Source: Saccharomycopsis phalli (Eukaryota; Ascomycota; Saccharomycetes; Ascoideales; Saccharomycopsidaceae). From it: 64,000 nucleotides of DNA. The notes under the pieces are model-generated. The model saw only the letters and a list, made by a program, of their open reading frames with translations. It made no database searches and had not been told where the DNA came from. Positions 26,920 to 52,214 of this stretch are shown piece by piece (position 1 is the stretch's first letter; every line of letters begins with the position of its first letter). A program made the translations under genes and the position numbers. The stretch spans positions 558,001 through 622,000 of the forward strand of contig CP073215.1 in the NCBI GenBank assembly GCA_020342235.1. The letters are read 5' to 3'.

Positions 26920-28875
26920 ATGGGACAGATCAACCTCCCCATAAAGCTCAACTCGGCGCACCTAAGACCCGTTGCATATCGTGTGCTTTCCAAGAAATAT
27001 GGACTCCATATAAAATCGTCTGCGCTTGAAGTTTTGACTGAATGGATAGGCCGGAAGTTTGGATCCCAATGGAAGAGCCAAGAGGCTGTGAAATACCTTG
27101 AATTGGTCGCAAAGACCTGGAGGACGAAGAACCAGGCAAACAAGAGTCTATTTATCGAGGGTGAGTCGTTGAAGGAGGTCTTGGAGGAGCTTGAAGAAGC
27201 TTCTAAGGCGACGGAAACAGCCGAGCCGACTATTGTCAAGGCCCAAGACTACTTTCGCGTGGTGGACATGTACGACCTTCCAATGTATAAATATGACGAG
27301 GCCAACAAACGGTACGTGCCTAGTTTACCAGCCCACGACAAACTGTCTGGTTCTTTGGTGCAAAAGCTCTCTGTAAACTTTGACATCAAGTACTGTCTCG
27401 ACATGTACATTTCTCGGTACTATCAAATGTACCACCAGCTCCAGCGCACCGAGCGATTCAAATGGACTGGCGAGGTGATCTCGGAGTCGCTGCGGTTCCA
27501 GAAAGTCTACTCTGCGAACCAAAATACTGCACTGCTCACGCTCACGAAGAATCTCTTGGGTCGTCACGGGAGCCGTTTTATTGTGTTTGGGCTTCTCAGC
27601 AAGAATCCTGAGGGACAGTATATGCTCCAGGATTCGTCGGGGACGATTGTGTTGGATCTTGCCAGTGCCATTCCCGACACGCGGTTCTTTTACTTTGAGG
27701 GATGCTTGATACTAGTTGACGGGGTGTATACGAATTTTGGAGGCCATAGCAAGTTGGTGGTGGACTTGATGTACCATCCAGGCACGGAGTCGCGCGAGGA
27801 CTTTTTCAAGACGTTTGGTAAGTTGGATTTCACGCTGGAGAAGTTGGATATCATTGGAGGTGCTGTGGAGGCGAGCTACAAGGAAATCAAGCTCCAGCAC
27901 AAGAAGCAGGCGCAGGACTACTTTGACGAGCAGAGCAGCGTGCTTCCGCCGCGGATTGTGTTTCTTGGCAAGGATATTGCGTTGGACCGTCTTGATACGT
28001 TGAGCCATCTCAAGAAGTTGTTTACGAGTCTTTGCGAGGATTTGAACAACTTGCCAATTGCCATGGTGTTTCCCGGGTCGTTTTTGAGCACCACGTTCCA
28101 GGTTTCCCCGTTGGATTCCATGGAGAATAGCTCCATGTCGTACAAGTCGGTGTTTGACACCTTGGCGGTGGTGCTCCAGGGGTTTCCGGAATTGTGTGCA
28201 AAGACCCAGTTTGTGTTCACCTCTGGGTATAGAGACCCATGGGCCTCGCTCCAGTACCAAGGCGACAAGAACGTACCAGTTCCACTTGGCCGGATCTCGA
28301 AGATCTTTCTGAGCCGGATTTCCAAGGTGGTGAGGAAGATGCGGTTTGTGACGAACCCGTTTCGAATATACTACTTGGATACGGAGATTTTGTGTTTTAA
28401 TGACGATATTTACGAGCGGATGCTGGAGAGTCGTATGGAGTTTGAATACACCAAGGAAAAAGCACGTACAGAAATGGACATGGACGAAGCACCACGTCTC
28501 GATTTGGACGAATCGGACTTGGAGTCCAATAAGCTCTACCTTCAGTCTCAAATCTCTGACTTGGATCTGCTCAACATCAATACTCTCAAGCCCGATGCAG
28601 GGCAGCTTGACCGGTTCGTCAACACCTTCCTTCACCAGGGTCACGTGTCTCCGTTCCTCGGCAGACCAATTGTCTGGAGGTACAACTGTGTACTCACGAT
28701 GCTGCCTCTTCCAAGTACCGTGGTGGTTTTTGATGGGTCGCAGGGGTTTTTCAGCCGCAAGACCAGTACTACCCATGTTATTAACCCTGGAAAATTCGTG
28801 GATGAGGCACGGCTCAACTATGTGGTGTATTATCCGTCGTTGGATCGGCTGGAGCATCGACAGGTGGTGCTTTAG
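26920..28875 (+). CDS. DPB2: DNA polymerase epsilon subunit B
   Basis: The protein has 651 residues from the ATG at 26920. The open frame begins nine codons earlier without an ATG, and MGQINLPIKLNSAHLRPVAY aligns with the known Dpb2 start. The N-terminal domain (LRPVAYRVLSKKYGLHIKSS, ALEVLTEWIGRKFG) is the region that contacts GINS. An OB-fold follows (RFIVFGLLSKNPEGQYMLQD, GTIVLDLASAIPDTRFFYFE). The C-terminal inactive calcineurin-like phosphoesterase domain runs from PRIVFLGKDIALDRLDTLSH through VFPGSFLSTTFQ and VFTSGYRDPWASLQ to the end (VVFDGSQGFF, YYPSLDRLEH). Dpb2 is the essential non-catalytic subunit of leading-strand polymerase and helps load it on the CMG helicase. An MCB box lies just upstream. 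Confidence 0.96.
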   Translation: MGQINLPIKLNSAHLRPVAYRVLSKKYGLHIKSSALEVLTEWIGRKFGSQWKSQEAVKYLELVAKTWRTKNQANKSLFIEGESLKEVLEELEEASKATETAEPTIVKAQDYFRVVDMYDLPMYKYDEANKRYVPSLPAHDKLSGSLVQKLSVNFDIKYCLDMYISRYYQMYHQLQRTERFKWTGEVISESLRFQKVYSANQNTALLTLTKNLLGRHGSRFIVFGLLSKNPEGQYMLQDSSGTIVLDLASAIPDTRFFYFEGCLILVDGVYTNFGGHSKLVVDLMYHPGTESREDFFKTFGKLDFTLEKLDIIGGAVEASYKEIKLQHKKQAQDYFDEQSSVLPPRIVFLGKDIALDRLDTLSHLKKLFTSLCEDLNNLPIAMVFPGSFLSTTFQVSPLDSMENSSMSYKSVFDTLAVVLQGFPELCAKTQFVFTSGYRDPWASLQYQGDKNVPVPLGRISKIFLSRISKVVRKMRFVTNPFRIYYLDTEILCFNDDIYERMLESRMEFEYTKEKARTEMDMDEAPRLDLDESDLESNKLYLQSQISDLDLLNINTLKPDAGQLDRFVNTFLHQGHVSPFLGRPIVWRYNCVLTMLPLPSTVVVFDGSQGFFSRKTSTTHVINPGKFVDEARLNYVVYYPSLDRLEHRQVVL

Positions 28876-29624: not shown

Positions 29625-31561
29625 TTACTCTCCATTTGACTCTTCCTTTGACTCTCCACTCAACTCTTCCTTTGACTCTCCACTCAACTCTTCCTTTGAC
29701 TCTCCATTCGACTCTCCATTCGACTCACCGCTCTCAGAATCCGCCTTTGGTGGAACTACAAACCACGGAATCTTCCCCCGATTAAAATCATTAATCACCT
29801 GCTTAGCCACCCCCGACAAATTAGCCTCACCTCCCTTCAACAACTTACCCTGTTTGTTCGCCAACAACTCCAAAAACTCTGTAGCGTTGCTCCATCCTTT
29901 TATCTCATATGTTCGCTCCAAGTAATTCGTCTTGACCTTCTCCAAGATCACATCTATATACTGCTCCGGATTGCTTACATTTTCCACCCGTACGGCTCCT
30001 CTAAACAAAATATCAGCCTCGCTGTCTGTCCGTGACGGAGGAACCACTCCTGGACAGTCAATGAGGAAAATCGACTTGACCAACGAAATGTATTGCCAGA
30101 CCTTGGTTTCCCCAGGAATCGGCGCCACATTAACGACCTTTTTGGCCTTTAGACAGTTGATCACCGACGACTTGCCTACGTTTGGATAGCCAATGAATCC
30201 CACTGAGATCTGCGGCTTGTCAGATTTAAGTTTCTTAAACTGTCGCAAAAGTTGGATCAATGAACCTTTTCCAAATGAGTTTTTGATGGAGGCGTGGAAC
30301 GCCAAAGTAGGGTATTCCTTGGACAAGTGTTTCACCCAAGCGGCCTAATGTTAGTATGAATTAAAAATGCAATTGATCTTAAATGGATAGTGTGTCACAT
30401 AACAAGAGACTTGGATATTCGTAAATGACATCCAGTGATCCAGTGTAATGAGTGTAATGATCCAGTACATTAACATCCATATCAACATCACATCAACACC
30501 AAACCATATTACATGTGCGGGTCTTTACTAAGAGCAATCCAGGTATGCTGAAACACTCAACTCAAAAGTCCCATTTCAAATCAGAAGCAGCAAAACGCTG
30601 CCAATGTCCCGACCCAAAACGAGCCAGGACAAACGATCGAATCAATCTTCCAAAGAAGTAACAGTCAAATTTTATTTCGGAAAAAATGACCTGACAAAAT
30701 CTTTGGTGTGAACCAGACATTTGTACGCCTGAGACACGCAAATCCATCTAAAACAATCAAACTATAAATACTTACAGCTACCCAAGTGGGAACCAAGTCA
30801 CACTTGTTCAACACGAATATCACGTGCTTATGCGGGGCCTCTTTCTTGACATGCTGCTCAATCTTCTCACATCTCGTGCCCATGGGATCTCTGGCGTCCA
30901 ACACCTGGATGATGACGTCACTGGAGTCGATGACCTTGTATAACTCGTTCCAGATCCGTTTTGACTGGCCCTTGTGGAAGATGGCATCCTTAGCGACTTG
31001 CGACCATCCTTCGGTGTCGGTGGTGTTCATCAAGCCAAGGGTGGTTGACAATGCCTGCTTGTCATCATAGGCCCCCAAATCCAGCGACGAGCTGGCGGCA
31101 AGCTCGTCAAATGTGGAGTCCTTGCGCAGCTGTTTTTTCCGCTGGGCCTTTGGGCCAAATGTGTTTTCAAACGACTCCAACTGCACCACGGCTTTGGAGG
31201 AGATGGTCTGTTTGTCAATATGCTGGGCTTCCTGGAGGAGGGAGACTGGCAACTTGTTGCGGTGCAACACCACGTTGTATGTGCTTTTCAGGGCTTCGCT
31301 AAAGGCCGATCGGAAGTGTTCCAAAGCGTCCTGGGAAATGACTCTGGTGTTGCCAAACCATCTTCTGTTTGGGTCTACTCTAGCGGTGGGGATGTCGGTG
31401 GACTGTAACACTGAGGCATTGTGGTTGTACATTTTCTTTTTCTTTGCGGCTTTTGCATCGGTGTAGAAGTTTTCGCCCTTTTGGCGGATGTTGCCAAACT
31501 TTTTGCCACCATCCTTGGCCTCTCTAGCTCTCCGCGACTTTTCCTTTTTAAATGTACCCAT
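29625..31561 (-). CDS. NOG2: Nucleolar GTPase NOG2 (NUG2/NGP-1), one intron
   Basis: Exon 1 is 30776-31561 (262 codons, [20 protein letters not shown]... to [11 protein letters not shown]). The intron is 30345-30775 (431 nt) with GTAAGT and TACTAAC at 30350-30356, the AG 5 nt further on. Exon 2 is 29625-30344, starting [20 protein letters not shown]. The joined product is 501 residues. The circularly permuted GTPase order is visible: G4 NKCD in VLNKCDLVP, then G1 [15 protein letters not shown], then G3 in [22 protein letters not shown] is the conserved C-terminal NOG2 motif. Nog2 binds late nuclear pre-60S particles and checks their maturation before Nmd3 and export. The last 25 residues are a Glu/Ser repeat from a coding minisatellite at about 29630-29720. 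The unusually long intron hosts a probable snoRNA. Confidence 0.97.
30511..30715 (-). ncRNA. H/ACA box snoRNA in the NOG2 intron, snR191-like
   Basis: Inside the NOG2 intron, on the sense (minus) strand, two hairpins fit the H/ACA plan. 5' hairpin: basal stem CCAAAG (30706-30701) with CTTTGG (30655-30650), an internal loop, then an upper stem beginning GTCA and closing TGAC. It is followed by an H-like box AGATTG at 30648-30643, 15 nt from the pocket (consensus ANANNA, so the last base is off). 3' hairpin: GGGACTTT (30572-30565) with AAAGACCC (30526-30519), upper stem GAGTG...CTC, and an ACA box at 30516-30514, again 15 nt from the pocket. The 5' pocket's right arm contains GTTACTTC, complementary (one G-U) to GGAGTAAC in helix 69 of 25S rRNA. 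In S. cerevisiae the NOG2 intron carries snR191, which guides pseudouridines 2258 and 2260 in that helix. The homology is inferred from position, layout and guide. Confidence 0.72.
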
Positions 31562-34079: not shown

Positions 34080-34228
34080 ATTCGCCATGGGAGGTGTGAG
34101 GAGGTATGGGGAGCTGGAGAGAGCTATTGGGGTCTCTTTATTAGTGAGTTCTTTATTAGGAAGTCTCTATTGGGATCTCTTGGAGATTCTCTTTATTAGT
34201 GTGTCGCCTTGGCGAGTTGCCATCGGAG

Positions 34229-34750
34229 AGTCTCTTTATTGGCACGTCTCTTATTGGTACGTCTCTTTATTGGTACGTCTCTTTATTGGTACGTCTCTTT
34301 ATTGGTACGTCTCTTTATTGGTACGTCTCTTTATTGGTACGTCTCTTTATTGGTACGTCTCTTTATTGGTACGTCTCTTTATTGGTACGTCTCTTTATTG
34401 GTACGTCTCTTTATTGGTACGTCTCTTTATTGGTACGTCTCTTTATTGGTACGTCTCTTTATTGGTACGTCTCTTTATTGGTACGTCTCTTTATTGGTAC
34501 GTCTCTTTATTGGTACGTCTCTTTATTGGTACGTCTCTTTATTGGTACGTCTCTTTATTGGTACGTCTCTTTATTGGTACGTCTCTTTATTGGTACGTCT
34601 CTTTATTGGTACGTCTCTTTATTGGTACGTCTCTTTATTGGTACGTCTCTTTATTGGTACGTCTCTTTATTGGTACGTCTCTTTATTGGTACGTCTCTTT
34701 ATTGGTACGTCTCTTTATTGGTACGTCTCTTTATTGGTACGTCTCTTTAT
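34229..34750. repeat. Minisatellite, 16-bp unit, 30 perfect copies
   Basis: GTCTCTTTATTGGTAC repeats exactly 30 times from 34261 to 34740, with imperfect units on both sides. No substitution was seen within the core, so it is young or strongly homogenised. Because 16 is not a multiple of three and no frame meets a stop, all three forward frames stay open and give the same 16-residue periodic peptide. These frames are artefacts. The array lies 150 bp after the stop of the C2H2 factor gene. Confidence 0.97.
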
Positions 34751-34998
34751 TTAGTCAGTCGCTAGTGGTGATTTTCTTTATTGGCGAGCCTTTATTGGTG
34801 TGTCTTTATTGGTGTGTGATGGTTCAGGACCATGGTTCAGGGCCGTGGTCCAGGTGTATCAGGTACAACTACTTGTCCAAGATATGGATTCTCACCGACA
34901 AGTTATGGTATTGATTAGTTAGTTTTCGCTGATGAGTCGAGGTGCAACTTCAAGTCAAAGTACAATTTGTCAGGCATCAATTTTTCAAGCCCAGACCC

Positions 34999-39229: not shown

Positions 39230-39757
39230 TTATTTCCCCTCGATTGCATAATTGATAAAGTCAGAAAACATCTTCCGGTCTTCCTGGTTGTGTATCCATA
39301 TACCATACACTTCCCCTACAGTGGTGCGGATCATCAACAAATCATTAGCCTGCTGGAGCTCGTAGTGGATTCCCTTGTAGAATTCAGGATATGCCAGAGT
39401 AATGGCCTTGGAGATTATTCCAATGGCCAAGTTCTTGGGCCCATTTCGATTGACAATCATCAAGCCATGGCCATACAAATCTTTGAGTTTCATATCGGCA
39501 TCAGACACTTTGTTTTGCGTCACGTCGTCGATGCTTCGCTCATAAAAGATCAAAGGCCCCTGGAAATCAGTCTGCTCCCAGTTATCTGTGGCCTCGTTGA
39601 ATTTATACAGCACAGCATGGGGCGTCGTTCGTATTATTTGTTTCAATTTCGGATCATATTTCCCAACACAGTTGAAATTTAATATATGTTTATATAATTC
39701 TAGTGCCACCTGGCTATCCTCAGGAGCTTTGAACGTCGTCTGCGATTGTGTAGCCAT
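39230..39757 (-). CDS. DCP1: mRNA decapping enzyme subunit 1
   Basis: The 175-residue protein is a single EVH1-like Dcp1 domain with almost no extension. ALELYKHILNFNCVGKYDPK is the N-terminal helix that packs on Dcp2. HAVLYKFNEATDNWEQTDFQ with GPLIFYER forms the first strands, HGLMIVNRNGPKNLAIGI follows, and VGEVYGIWIHNQEDRKMFSD is the closing strand and helix. Dcp1 activates the Dcp2 hydrolase that removes the 5' cap in the cytoplasm and P-bodies. It is shorter than S. cerevisiae Dcp1 (231 aa) because it lacks the yeast-specific insertions. It starts at the ATG at 39757 with no intron. Confidence 0.93.
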   Translation of the reverse strand: MATQSQTTFKAPEDSQVALELYKHILNFNCVGKYDPKLKQIIRTTPHAVLYKFNEATDNWEQTDFQGPLIFYERSIDDVTQNKVSDADMKLKDLYGHGLMIVNRNGPKNLAIGIISKAITLAYPEFYKGIHYELQQANDLLMIRTTVGEVYGIWIHNQEDRKMFSDFINYAIEGK

Positions 39758-42184: not shown

Positions 42185-43891
42185 ATGAACGAGCAATTTG
42201 GCAGCTACCCAGAGAAAAAGGGACAAAAGAGGAAATATGGTGTTTGTGAGGGATGTGGTAAACGAGGATGGCACACGATCAAACAATGTACTGTTGCCAA
42301 AGAAAAGGCGGAAAATGAATCCAGATCCAGTCTAGGAGTCTTGGATACCAAACAAGACAGCATGAAGATCTCCAAGCGTGCTTTTATTCGAGTGTCACAG
42401 TTGGAAAACATGGACCCATCCGTGATGCTTTATGATGCTACGGGCGATGTTACGTTTACTACGTTCAAAGACATGCTTACGGATATCCAGGATGAAACTA
42501 TTTATTGCGAAACACGGGGAGACGAAATGTTGCGTCTAACTGGCCCTGGAAATATTACAATACCTTTTGGAGGTCTGTTGATTACACTCAAGGGATACTA
42601 CTTGGATCGAAACGATGTGGGGAAGGATCTCTCGGTTGTTTCTTTTCAAGGCGTGCCTAGTCAACGTGTGTCTATTTCTAACCTGCTGTACAACGAGGTT
42701 GAAATCACATATGATGGAAAATCCACTCGAATAGTCGCTGACCACAATCGATTGCTTTATTTCAAGCTCGACAAGAAACCTACACCAGCAGCTTTTAAAT
42801 TGGAAAGAGGTCTGGATCCCTTTGCGCTTTCGCGAACAGAAAACGAGCTCCTACAAGATTTCAAAAGGAAGTACCAGCGCGATCTAAATGAAGAAGTGAT
42901 GAAATTGGGTCTCGGGCTGTCATCCAACGACGAGGCAAGTGTTCCGGGGCATACTTTGTATTCTGCCATGCTTTTGTATAATAATAATACTGTGTTGTTA
43001 ATGGTCGATGGATACAGCAAAATGGTCGATGCTGTTTTGATTCCATACCAAAAAGCGGCCGAGCTGATTGCTGAACGAGTCTTGATGAATGGCTACAAGC
43101 ATTTCGTTACTTACAAGGAACTGCCATTTGATACTGAGAGTTTTGTGGAATTTCTTGCAAAGAATCATATTGAAAGACTGAAACGCACTCGCGACTGTGA
43201 TGAAACTATGAATGAATGTGTGACTATGATGCAAAACCAGTTAAAGAAAACCGAACAAAGTTTAAGAAACAGAAGCAATGGTGGGAATTGGGACATTCTG
43301 GACAAGGAATTTACTCAACATTACTTTCAAGAACTTTTGAGCCACATCACTTACCAGTATAATAGACAACCGCGACTGTCAGATGGGATCATTCCATTAC
43401 AACGGCACTATGGAGAAAATATAGTTAAGACCATAGACGAACGGGCATTTCACGATTTTGGGTCCCTAGTATATTACAGCACGGAATATGATAGGTTCAT
43501 GTTACCAAGATACCCCGAAGAGGCTGGACGGTTCTTGGGCTGTTGGAAGGAACATTTAGATTTTATTATTGAAGATGTGTCAACAGGATTTCGCGAAACT
43601 ACGTATAATGTTCGATTTGATAAGGTTAAAAGTATACCATCAATGCATGGTTTACCAGACGGCAGAAAAAACCTTAGTAATGAGGCAAGGCTTCAGCCTA
43701 GACTGGGTAGCTGGGTGACACAGGGACCCCTGAGTGACGATGAACCGGAGTTTCATTATGGTGCAGAAAAAGAACCCTATTATCAGGTAATTGATCCATG
43801 TGAGTCTGATTTCAGCATAATACTTGATTTGTTGATACCTGTTGCACAACATCTCTCCTACAATCGTGAAGAGACTATTAAAAAGCCATGA
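42185..43891 (+). mobile_element. Ty1/copia-derived relic (gag-end, protease-like and integrase-like parts)
   Basis: A 568-codon open frame with the part order of a copia-group (Pseudoviridae) element. It has a Gag-type zinc knuckle near the start (VCEGCGKRGWHTIKQC), a protease-like segment (GPGNITIPFGG region), an integrase-core-like segment (LLMVDGYSKMVDAVLIPY) and an integrase C-terminal part typical of copia (ITYQYNRQPRLSDGIIP, then DFGSLVYY and AGRFLGCW). Reverse transcriptase and RNase H are not present and no LTR pair was recognised, so the element is broken and partial. The frame itself is long and uninterrupted, so it is either fairly young or kept by the host as a captured gene. Treated here as a fossil. 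Confidence 0.75.
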
Positions 43892-48010: not shown

Positions 48011-49733
48011 TTATTGTTTTGGTATTTTATGGAAAAAAGTGGATGGTGAAACCAGAGAATCTGGGCTATTTTTATATTGCAAATGAGCTTGTGAATCACA
48101 TTTGTTGATTATCACAAACACATTAGAGGAAGTCACAACGCAGTGTTGACGCTCACAAATACTAGCACACAATCAAGGTCAATCAAGTCAACCAAAGCAA
48201 ATCAAGGCCATGTTGAGACTCTTCAAGACTCGATATTTGATTGGAGTTTGCAAATGGCCTGATGAAAATTTACAACGACAGCCTTGACCGAATTACGAAA
48301 AAGCTACGAGTAGTAGTATTTAAAACTTCATGTTGGATAATCAACGCCATCCAATGAAGTTTAGCTGCAAGCCATGGGTATTGTGTGACTTTGTATAACT
48401 CTGTATTGCAAATGTAAAGTATGTTGGCTGCAAGTGTAAAGTACACTGTATGATGATTAGAAAAAGGCAAGATACAAGCATTATGACAAGATACAAACAG
48501 CCATGACAAGATACAAGCATCATGACAAGATACAAGCACAGTCTATTTATTACGCGATACAAGTACAGTCTATTTATCACATGATACTAGCAGTCTGGTG
48601 CCAAGTGCTTCAACGTGTCCAATAGCTGGCTACACGTGACATGTGACCTTCCCATTAATACTGGCAACCAAATGGCTGGAAAAATATTGGGTCCATTACA
48701 AGAAAAACTCAACTTGGATTGATCAAGGCATTGTAACAGCCCAAATGATCAAACATTGGCCGAGATTATCCACACATGTTGTGTGAAAGGGGCACGTGTA
48801 AATATTGGCCACGTCTATAATTAGACTTTGTACAAGAAAAGTCAGTGGTACCCATGGGGCTCATGACGTGAGATTTTCAATATGCTAATCTGAAATTCGA
48901 TATAAGCCCAAACAGGACGCGTTCGTATGATTTAGCTGGCATTTTGTCTTTAGTGACTGTAGGTGTTGCCGTTTCAGCTCCACAGGTATGCTGAAAGAGG
49001 AAATAGTGATGCATCTCTTAGACAATAAAGCAGGGTGCTCGGAGACAATTAGTGTCATAAAAGCAGTGATGTTTCAGGTAACTACATTTCCTAATGAGGA
49101 ATGTCACAGTATCCCTATGCTTTAGTACATGTATGATGAGACGAATAATTATTTGATGGCCAGAGAACATTCTGCATGTAAATAAATGACTTGCAATGGT
49201 GTAGAGTAGAATAGTGATAAAAGAAGATTGTATAGTAGAGAAAAGAATAGAAATGATGGGATAGACATGATATAGGATAAAATAAGCAAGCTAGACAACA
49301 AACGGATAAAATATATATTAATTTTGTCTTACAAGAAGCGAATATTAATTTGCTGAAACCGATTTGGTATTGAGAATCCATAAAACGCTCCTGTGTTGAA
49401 ACATGCATAGAAAAGCTGCCAGAAGACGGTGGAAATTTTGTGGAAATTTTGTACCGTTGCACGGAAACTCGTTTGACATAGTACCAATGATATTGGCACT
49501 CATGTTGAATTTGTAGTAATATAATCCAAGCCCATCACTAATTTAACCTTGATACCTCCTGGATATATCCTAGATTTGAAAATGTCTGCCACGAACCTTT
49601 TAAATTTTAGTCTATAATAATAACGACTTAGGGTCGGTACTAATGTATGGAGACGCAGCGACGTAAATGCTGCAGCACAGCTGGATTGGTATATATTACA
49701 ACGAGAATCTCAAACACGATTGCAAATTGTATA
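48011..49733. repeat. Long intergenic region with a 20-bp minisatellite (48467-48590)
   Basis: CATGACAAGATACAAGCA-type units repeat four times at 48467-48540, then a diverged pair GCGATACAAGTACAGTCTAT follows. The rest of the 1.7 kb holds no recognisable gene. CACGTG occurs at about 48633 and 48792. The length is typical of the regulatory regions before wall-adhesin genes such as the one starting at 49734, but no element was identified. Confidence 0.55.
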
Positions 49734-52214
49734 ATGTGGTCAGCATATTTTCTAGTGGCGTCGTTATTCGCCCAGTTTGTCTTGTCACAAACTGTTTTGT
49801 TGTACAAGACTGTCACCGTGACAACATGGACAGCTCCACTGACGACATACGCATACTTTGGGTGCACTGACGGATGTAAGGTGTATAAAGGAATGTTAAT
49901 GAGTGCTAGCTCGACATCCACCAGTTCGACATCCACCAGTTCGACATCCACCAGTTCGACATCCACCAGTTCGACATCCACCAGTTCGACTTCAACTACT
50001 AGTTCAACTTCTACCAGCTCAACTTCTACCAGCTCAACTTCTACCAGCTCAACTTCTACCAGCTCAACTTCAAGTACCAGCTCGACTTCAAGTACTAGCT
50101 CGACTTCTACCACCAGCTCAACTTCAAGCTCGAGTAGCTCAAGTACCGACTCTTCAAGCACTACTACTGGAACTTCAAGCTCAAGCACTACTACTGGAAC
50201 ATCAAGCTCAAGCACCGACTCTTCAAGTACTACTGGAACTTCAAGTTCAAGCACCGACTCTTCAAGTTCAAGTACCGGAACTTCAAGCACTGACTCTTCA
50301 AGTACTACTACTGGAACATCAAGCTCAAGCACCGACTCTTCAAGTACTACTGGAACTTCAAGTTCAAGCACCGACTCTTCAAGTTCAATTACCGGAACTT
50401 CAAGCACTGACTCTTCAAGTACTACTACTGGAACTTCAAGTACCGAATCTTCAAGCTCAAGCACTGACTCTTCAAGTACTACTACCGGAACTTCAAGTAC
50501 TACTACTGGAACTTCAAGTTCAAGCACTGACTCTTCAAGCTCAAGCACTGACTCTTCAAGCACTACTACCGGAGTCTCAAGCACTGAATCTTCAAGCTCA
50601 AGCACCGGAACTTCTAGCACCGGAACTTCTAGCACCGGAACCTCTAGTTCAAGTACTGGAAGCTCAAGCACTGACTCTTTAAACACAAGCTCTGACATTT
50701 CAAGTACTAGTACTGGAACTTCAAGCTCAAGCACCAGCTCTGACTCAAGCACCAGCTCTGAAACTTCTTTCTCTTCCAACCCTAACTCCAGCAGTTCTAC
50801 CTCGTCAGGCGCACCTGGTGAATCCAGTTCTGCCCCATCCACTCAAACCACAACTGCAACTTACGAAACAGTCCAATGCGAACAAGACAAATGCTCGACA
50901 GTGCAAACATCTGGCCCAGCAATTCCTGTGGTGCAAACCAGTACATTTACAACAGTCTCTGACGGCCAAACGATTGTTTCGTCCTCGCTTGTTACGTCCT
51001 TCTCTCCAGTGTCAACTAGTCCAACTCCAGATCCAACTACATCCCCAGAGACCCTGAGACGGAGCCATTCTCACGGATATGCCACCACTCTGGTCGCATC
51101 TTCTACTGTGAGTGAATCCACCAGCACAATGGACAATATCTCCACCACCGTGGTGAGTATCGAGTCGTGTGATGCAGGGAAATGTTCGTCAGTTCCAGTG
51201 ACCACCGGGGTTAGTGTAGTCACTGTTACTTCAAGCGGTGTTGTCACGGAATACACTACTTATTGTCCATTGACTGCTTCCGAGGCTTCAACTCTGCAAA
51301 GTGTAACATCTTCTGAAGCTTCAACTCTGCAAAGTGTGACATCTTCTGAAGCTTCAACTCTGCAAAGTGTGACATCTTCTGAAGCTCCGTCAAGTGCTCA
51401 GAGCTCCAGCATCACAACTGGAGTCACTGTAGTCACTGTGACTTCAAGTGGAATTGTTACTGAATACACCACCTTCTGTCCATTGACTGAGGGCGGATCG
51501 ACCACTGTGATTCCAACCGAGGCTGCTCAATCAGAGACAAAGACACTGATTTCCGAATCTTCAGAGACTCTTACCGTTTCGAGTGCAAGTACTTCTGTTG
51601 TCGCTCCAAATGACTCTTTGACCCAATCATCCACTCCAGTTTCCTCTCCAAATGACTCTTTGACCCAATCGTCAACCCCAGTTTCCTCTCAAGTCTCAAC
51701 TTCATCACCAGTCTCTACTAACACATCTGAATCAGCAGTTTCAGAAACTACTCCTCAACCAAATCCACAAACCACTTTGGTATCAACTACTTCTGGACCA
51801 GTTACCCCAGCTAGTGCTTTACAAGAGTCATCTAGTCCATCTAGTGCTGCACAAGAGTCATCTAGTCCATCTAGTGCTGCACAAGAGTCATCTAGTGCTT
51901 CATCTACTCCATCTAGTGATTCAAATCCATCCAATTCAATTCAAACACCAGCACCAACTACTACTGCACATGCCTTGGAAGTTAACCCAGCCAACGCCCC
52001 AACAAATGCTCCGTTGGCTCCAGCTAACCCAACTTTGGCGGCAGCCGATACCACATTTTCTGCTTCTTCTTCAATTTCTTCTCCTTCTTCCAGTCCTGCT
52101 GGCCCAGGCCCATCGACATTTAGTTCTACTATAATGCAAGCAAATGGCTCGTCCAAGATCCACGCAAGTTTCGTGGCAGTGCTACTCGCATTGTGCCCAT
52201 TTATTCTTCTTTAA
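49734..52214 (+). CDS. GPI-anchored mucin-like cell-wall adhesin
   Basis: The ATG at 49734 gives 826 residues beginning [19 protein letters not shown], a clear signal peptide; the frame is open further upstream. A short Cys-containing module ([17 protein letters not shown]) precedes a Ser/Thr tract of about 290 residues (genomic 49905-50790). The tract is built from SSTST and [14 protein letters not shown] units, presumably a heavily O-mannosylated stalk. After it come three copies of a wall-protein module: [39 protein letters not shown] plus [11 protein letters not shown]; and [20 protein letters not shown] plus FCPLT. More Ser/Thr/Pro sequence follows with repeats (SSPSSAAQE). The C-terminus [19 protein letters not shown] fits a GPI signal. 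The role is probably adhesion or flocculation at the cell surface. The Ser/Thr repeats are likely to vary in length between strains. Confidence 0.88.

Follow-up and report, generated by a model that had tools for sequence, protein, structure and literature searches.

A predicted snR191 H/ACA snoRNA in the NOG2 intron of the yeast Saccharomycopsis phalli

The DNA analysed here is a 64,000-nt stretch of the Saccharomycopsis phalli genome (hereafter the window), in which the Nog2 coding span runs on the minus strand from 31561 to 29625 as two exons separated by one 431-nt intron. Exon 1 (30776..31561, minus strand, 262 codons) and exon 2 (29625..30344, minus strand, including the stop codon) flank an intron (30345..30775, minus strand) that opens with GTAAGT at 30775, carries TACTAAC from 30356 and closes with the 3' splice site TAG ending at 30345, as read from the sequence and from a loose splice-signal scan; the reading frame of NOG2 runs on across the exon junction. 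Consistently with the host gene proposed in an earlier note on this DNA, the two exons, once joined, encode a protein that matches Nucleolar GTP-binding protein 2 (PDB 3jct chain m, E 6.3e-200), and the 13 residues over the exon seam are identical to those of that chain. Within the intron, the two segments that flank the snoRNA described below (30345-30510 and 30709-30775, minus strand) can form a long duplex with one another, at an energy of -36.3 against a shuffle mean of -28.8. Equally good duplexes arose in 13 of 500 shuffles, a mild excess that weakly suggests an intron-closing stem.

Other features of the window concern codon usage and three further open reading frames. Fourteen CTG codons, in NOG2 (3), DPB2 (9) and DCP1 (2), were counted over the segments 26920-28875 (plus strand), 39230-39757 (minus strand) and 30776-31561 (minus strand); two of them are aligned to Leu, Ile, Val or Met in the solved homologue that matches best, as against 89 of 115 for the other leucine codons aligned in these genes. 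This avoidance of leucine-like positions supports the view that CTG is not read as leucine, and the species is probably a CTG-to-serine clade yeast whose genome would read CTG as serine. On the plus strand, a Ser/Thr-rich ORF of 855 aa (49647-52214) contains Flocculin type 3 repeats (Pfam PF13928, E 1.2e-18), suggesting that its product may be cell-wall adhesin-like. Another, of 568 aa (42185-43891, plus strand), begins, as judged by eye, like a zinc knuckle, has a stretch resembling an integrase and is possibly retrotransposon-derived, and a third (34087-34914, plus strand) consists largely of a tandem repeat (GTSLYWYVSLLVRLFI) and may be a minisatellite that is open by happenstance; neither of these two matched a Pfam family at E 0.001.

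When 4227 Rfam families were searched for across the window at their gathering thresholds, a single match was recovered, to snR191 (RF01263), an H/ACA snoRNA whose original description is said to be that of Badis et al. (2003). The match lies within the NOG2 intron (30708-30511, minus strand), covers the model in full (positions 1-273 of 273) and scores 70.4 bits against a cut-off of 46, with an E-value (9.8e-14) at which chance does not account for it. These boundaries define a predicted mature RNA of 198 nt (30511..30708, minus strand). The earlier note had placed an snR191-type RNA in this intron with a 3' end at 30511, 3 nt past the ACA box, and Rfam agrees on both; its 5' end, given there as 30715, moves to 30708. 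A permissive Rfam scan of 30300-30850, from which one overlapping hit with a lower score, to a family in the same clan, was omitted, returned snR191 again, together with a sub-threshold mir-1000 match over the accessory hairpins (15.5 bits against a cut-off of 50) that we took as chance. A separate snR191 locus, which would have spoken against the proposal, was not found: across the assembly (14,148,124 bases in 8 contigs; ~14.1 Mb), in a search that scored 28 of 688 first-look candidates, the NOG2 intron held the only match. The locus thus scores above the gathering threshold, has two pockets whose guide arms are placed as in the consensus, and lies in the NOG2 intron, the usual but not obligatory location of snR191.

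Folded without constraints, the 198 nt reach -58.1 kcal/mol; their shuffles average -47.34 (sd 4.03; z -2.67), with 1 of 200 folding at least as well. Both guide hairpins emerge from this unconstrained fold. The 5' guide hairpin (30650..30706, minus strand) has a 7-bp lower stem and the pocket arms UUUUGUCA and GUUACU, and is the predicted guide for Psi2258. It is followed by an H-like box, AGAUUG (30643..30648, minus strand), by accessory hairpin A (30605..30631, minus strand; 11 bp, loop C(GUUUU)G at 30620-30616) and by accessory hairpin B (30586..30602, minus strand; 6 bp, loop C(GUUUU)G at 30596-30592), both supported by fold and consensus. The 3' guide hairpin (30519..30572, minus strand), with pocket arms UGAGUU and UUAGU, is the predicted guide for Psi2260, and the ACA box (30514..30516, minus strand) precedes the predicted 3' end by 3 nt. 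The positions assigned by eye to AGATTG (30648-30643), GTTACTTC (30662-30655), TAGT (30530-30527) and ACA (30516-30514) proved exact.

In H/ACA RNAs the ACA box stands 3 nt from the 3' end and the pockets lie 14-16 nt ahead of the H and ACA boxes. Here, the ACA at 30516-30514 lies at that distance from the end of the match at 30511, and, counted from its first right-hand base, the pocket of the 5' hairpin precedes the H-like box by 14 nt and that of the 3' hairpin precedes ACA by 15 nt; a spacing of exactly 15 nt, proposed for both hairpins, thus stands for the second and becomes 14 for the first. The H box, already regarded as imperfect, is genuinely so: AGAUUG has two of the three fixed letters of ANANNA, ending in G where the Rfam consensus (AGAuUA) has A, and no perfect ANANNA was found in 30625-30652. 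In the unconstrained fold, moreover, the box is covered by a small predicted hairpin of 5 bp.

The guide arms were compared with the 25S helix 69 letters that we take to be those of the target. In the 5' pocket, GUCA and GUUACU complement UGAC and AGUAAC, which would flank U2258-A2259; in the 3' pocket, GAGU and UAGU complement ACUC and ACUA, which would flank U2260-G2261. The proposed pairing of the right arm of the 5' pocket with helix 69 is thus borne out against these letters. As for the 3' guide, it is indeed short, which had been counted as a weak point, but the Rfam consensus carries the same letters GAGU/UAGU, so the shortness is a feature of the family and no weakness of the Saccharomycopsis phalli copy. 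A search of the assembly for rRNA, using a 16-base helix 69 pattern (at most one mismatch) and a small-subunit 3'-end pattern (at most two mismatches), gave no match for either, which probably means that these contigs lack the rDNA or are not searchable for it; a text search of the literature with the helix 69 letters AACUAUGACUC gave no match. The guide arms agree with the Rfam consensus and with the snR191 sites tabulated in PMC8307265, where the available part of the table lists Am2256, Psi2258 and Psi2260 and assigns the last two to snR191.

A decaying relic of snR191, which would have kept the resemblance while no longer yielding a working guide, might account for some of these features, namely AGAUUG in place of AGAUUA, hinge letters able to form the 5-bp hairpin over the H box, and a part of the consensus structure that is missing. 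However, both guide arms, the ACA box and the 3' end agree with the RF01263 family, and the search of the assembly, with 28 of 688 first-look candidates scored, yielded no replacement copy. Of the 65 consensus pairs displayed, the Saccharomycopsis phalli RNA keeps 47, has a mismatch in 6 and lacks one or both partners in 12; this count was taken from an alignment fitted to the model, which leans it, and with the tips of two hairpins hidden. The gaps fall in the multibranch-closing helix (4 of 6 pairs), in hairpin A (3 of 15) and in the outer stem of hairpin B (5 of 5). Judged against the Rfam consensus only, 14 of the 47 kept pairs differ from it on both sides and still pair, which points to selection, and we regard decay as very improbable.

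Chance was also addressed with a pattern combining the two pockets, the two boxes and their spacing. On both strands of the window this pattern occurred at one locus, the snoRNA (overlapping starts at 30695 and 30690), and of 20000 dinucleotide shuffles of the intron one contained it, while 284 matched when only the 5' part was required and 310 when only the 3' part was. Because the pattern was devised after the locus had been seen and accepted either A or G at the final H-box position, this control is only supporting; the Rfam E-value is the independent chance test. A further scan of bacterial and archaeal contigs (257 billion bases) gave at least 119 stretches, approximately the chance level for 16 fixed bases, and was uninformative, the stretches being set aside; its pattern had one T too many and fits neither the NOG2-intron snoRNA nor the printed RF01263 consensus. 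That a long structured intron merely offered H/ACA-like features to the eye, as the commonness of the 3' pocket motif on its own might suggest (11 start positions on both window strands, 2 of them at the snR191 locus), is exceedingly improbable in view of the E-value over the full model, the single shuffle with the combined pattern and the position of the match in the published host gene.

We are therefore nearly certain that the NOG2 intron of Saccharomycopsis phalli encodes the orthologue of S. cerevisiae snR191. The sequence itself shows the family match, fold, ACA box, guide arms and host gene; the expression, processing and pseudouridine modifications are what we infer from them. Box H/ACA snoRNAs are stable RNAs bound by Cbf5, Nhp2, Nop10 and Gar1. 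The intron would be spliced out and debranched, and exonucleases would then trim it to the H/ACA particle, leaving an RNA of ~198 nt that ends 3 nt past ACA. In this RNA, the 5' pocket (GUCA/GUUACU) would pair with helix 69 of the 25S rRNA and present U2258, and the 3' pocket (GAGU/UAGU) would present U2260 (S. cerevisiae numbering), both of which the pseudouridine synthase Cbf5 would isomerise, as expected from the class of the RNA.

The segment between the guide hairpins (30586-30631, minus strand) holds both accessory hairpins, whose loops share the sequence C(GUUUU)G. Two such hairpins are likewise present in the RF01263 consensus, with the loops C(GUUuU)G and c(gUUUu)g, and the loops are kept here although the surrounding helix is mostly lost. 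Tentatively, and with more doubt than conviction, we suggest that the twin hairpins form a conserved docking module, for a protein or for rRNA beside helix 69, rather than filler. The loop letters CGUUU could, for example, pair with the AAACG that presumably lies a few bases ahead of helix 69. In the part of the snR191 literature surveyed, we met no role for the twin loops, which is not a claim that none has been described.

Compared with S. cerevisiae snR191 and the RF01263 consensus, the Saccharomycopsis phalli RNA shares the NOG2 intron, the two pockets with consensus arms and the ACA box. It differs from the consensus in the final G of its H box, in the right arm of the 5' pocket (GUUACU(UC) against GUUAca) and in the absence of most of the multibranch-closing helix and of the 5-bp outer stem of hairpin B. 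At ~198 nt it is also shorter than S. cerevisiae snR191, for which the accessible text of PMC12389098 gives 274 nt, along with PIP2 binding reported in vitro.

That host gene and snoRNA have stayed linked across yeasts, as the earlier note also put forward, holds and had already been published for other fungi. In the excerpt available, PMC5033589 places snR191 within the NOG2 intron in S. cerevisiae, Candida albicans and Lodderomyces elongisporus, the last two being CTG-clade yeasts that resemble Saccharomycopsis phalli in host gene and intronic location; in contrast, it describes C. parapsilosis and C. orthopsilosis as having a NOG2 intron that is too short and a monocistronic snR191. According to the available sections of PMC8476143, the position of the NOG2 intron is conserved in 8 of 8 intron-poor fungi and in 72% of the surveyed fungi, and a legend states that NOG2 introns encode H/ACA snoRNAs, part of one of the eight being of low confidence. 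The consulted portion of PMC4937481 refers in its text to snR191 orthologues in all Saccharomycotina and in its table to Saccharomycetaceae and Candida, and that of PMC4202332 reports the loss of snR191 in Naumovozyma dairenensis and a copy located elsewhere in Kazachstania africana. Since the pairing is already published, the locus represents a new example of an RNA already known, an ordinary snR191 in its usual host intron, and adds one more yeast genome to the long-lasting association of NOG2 and snR191.
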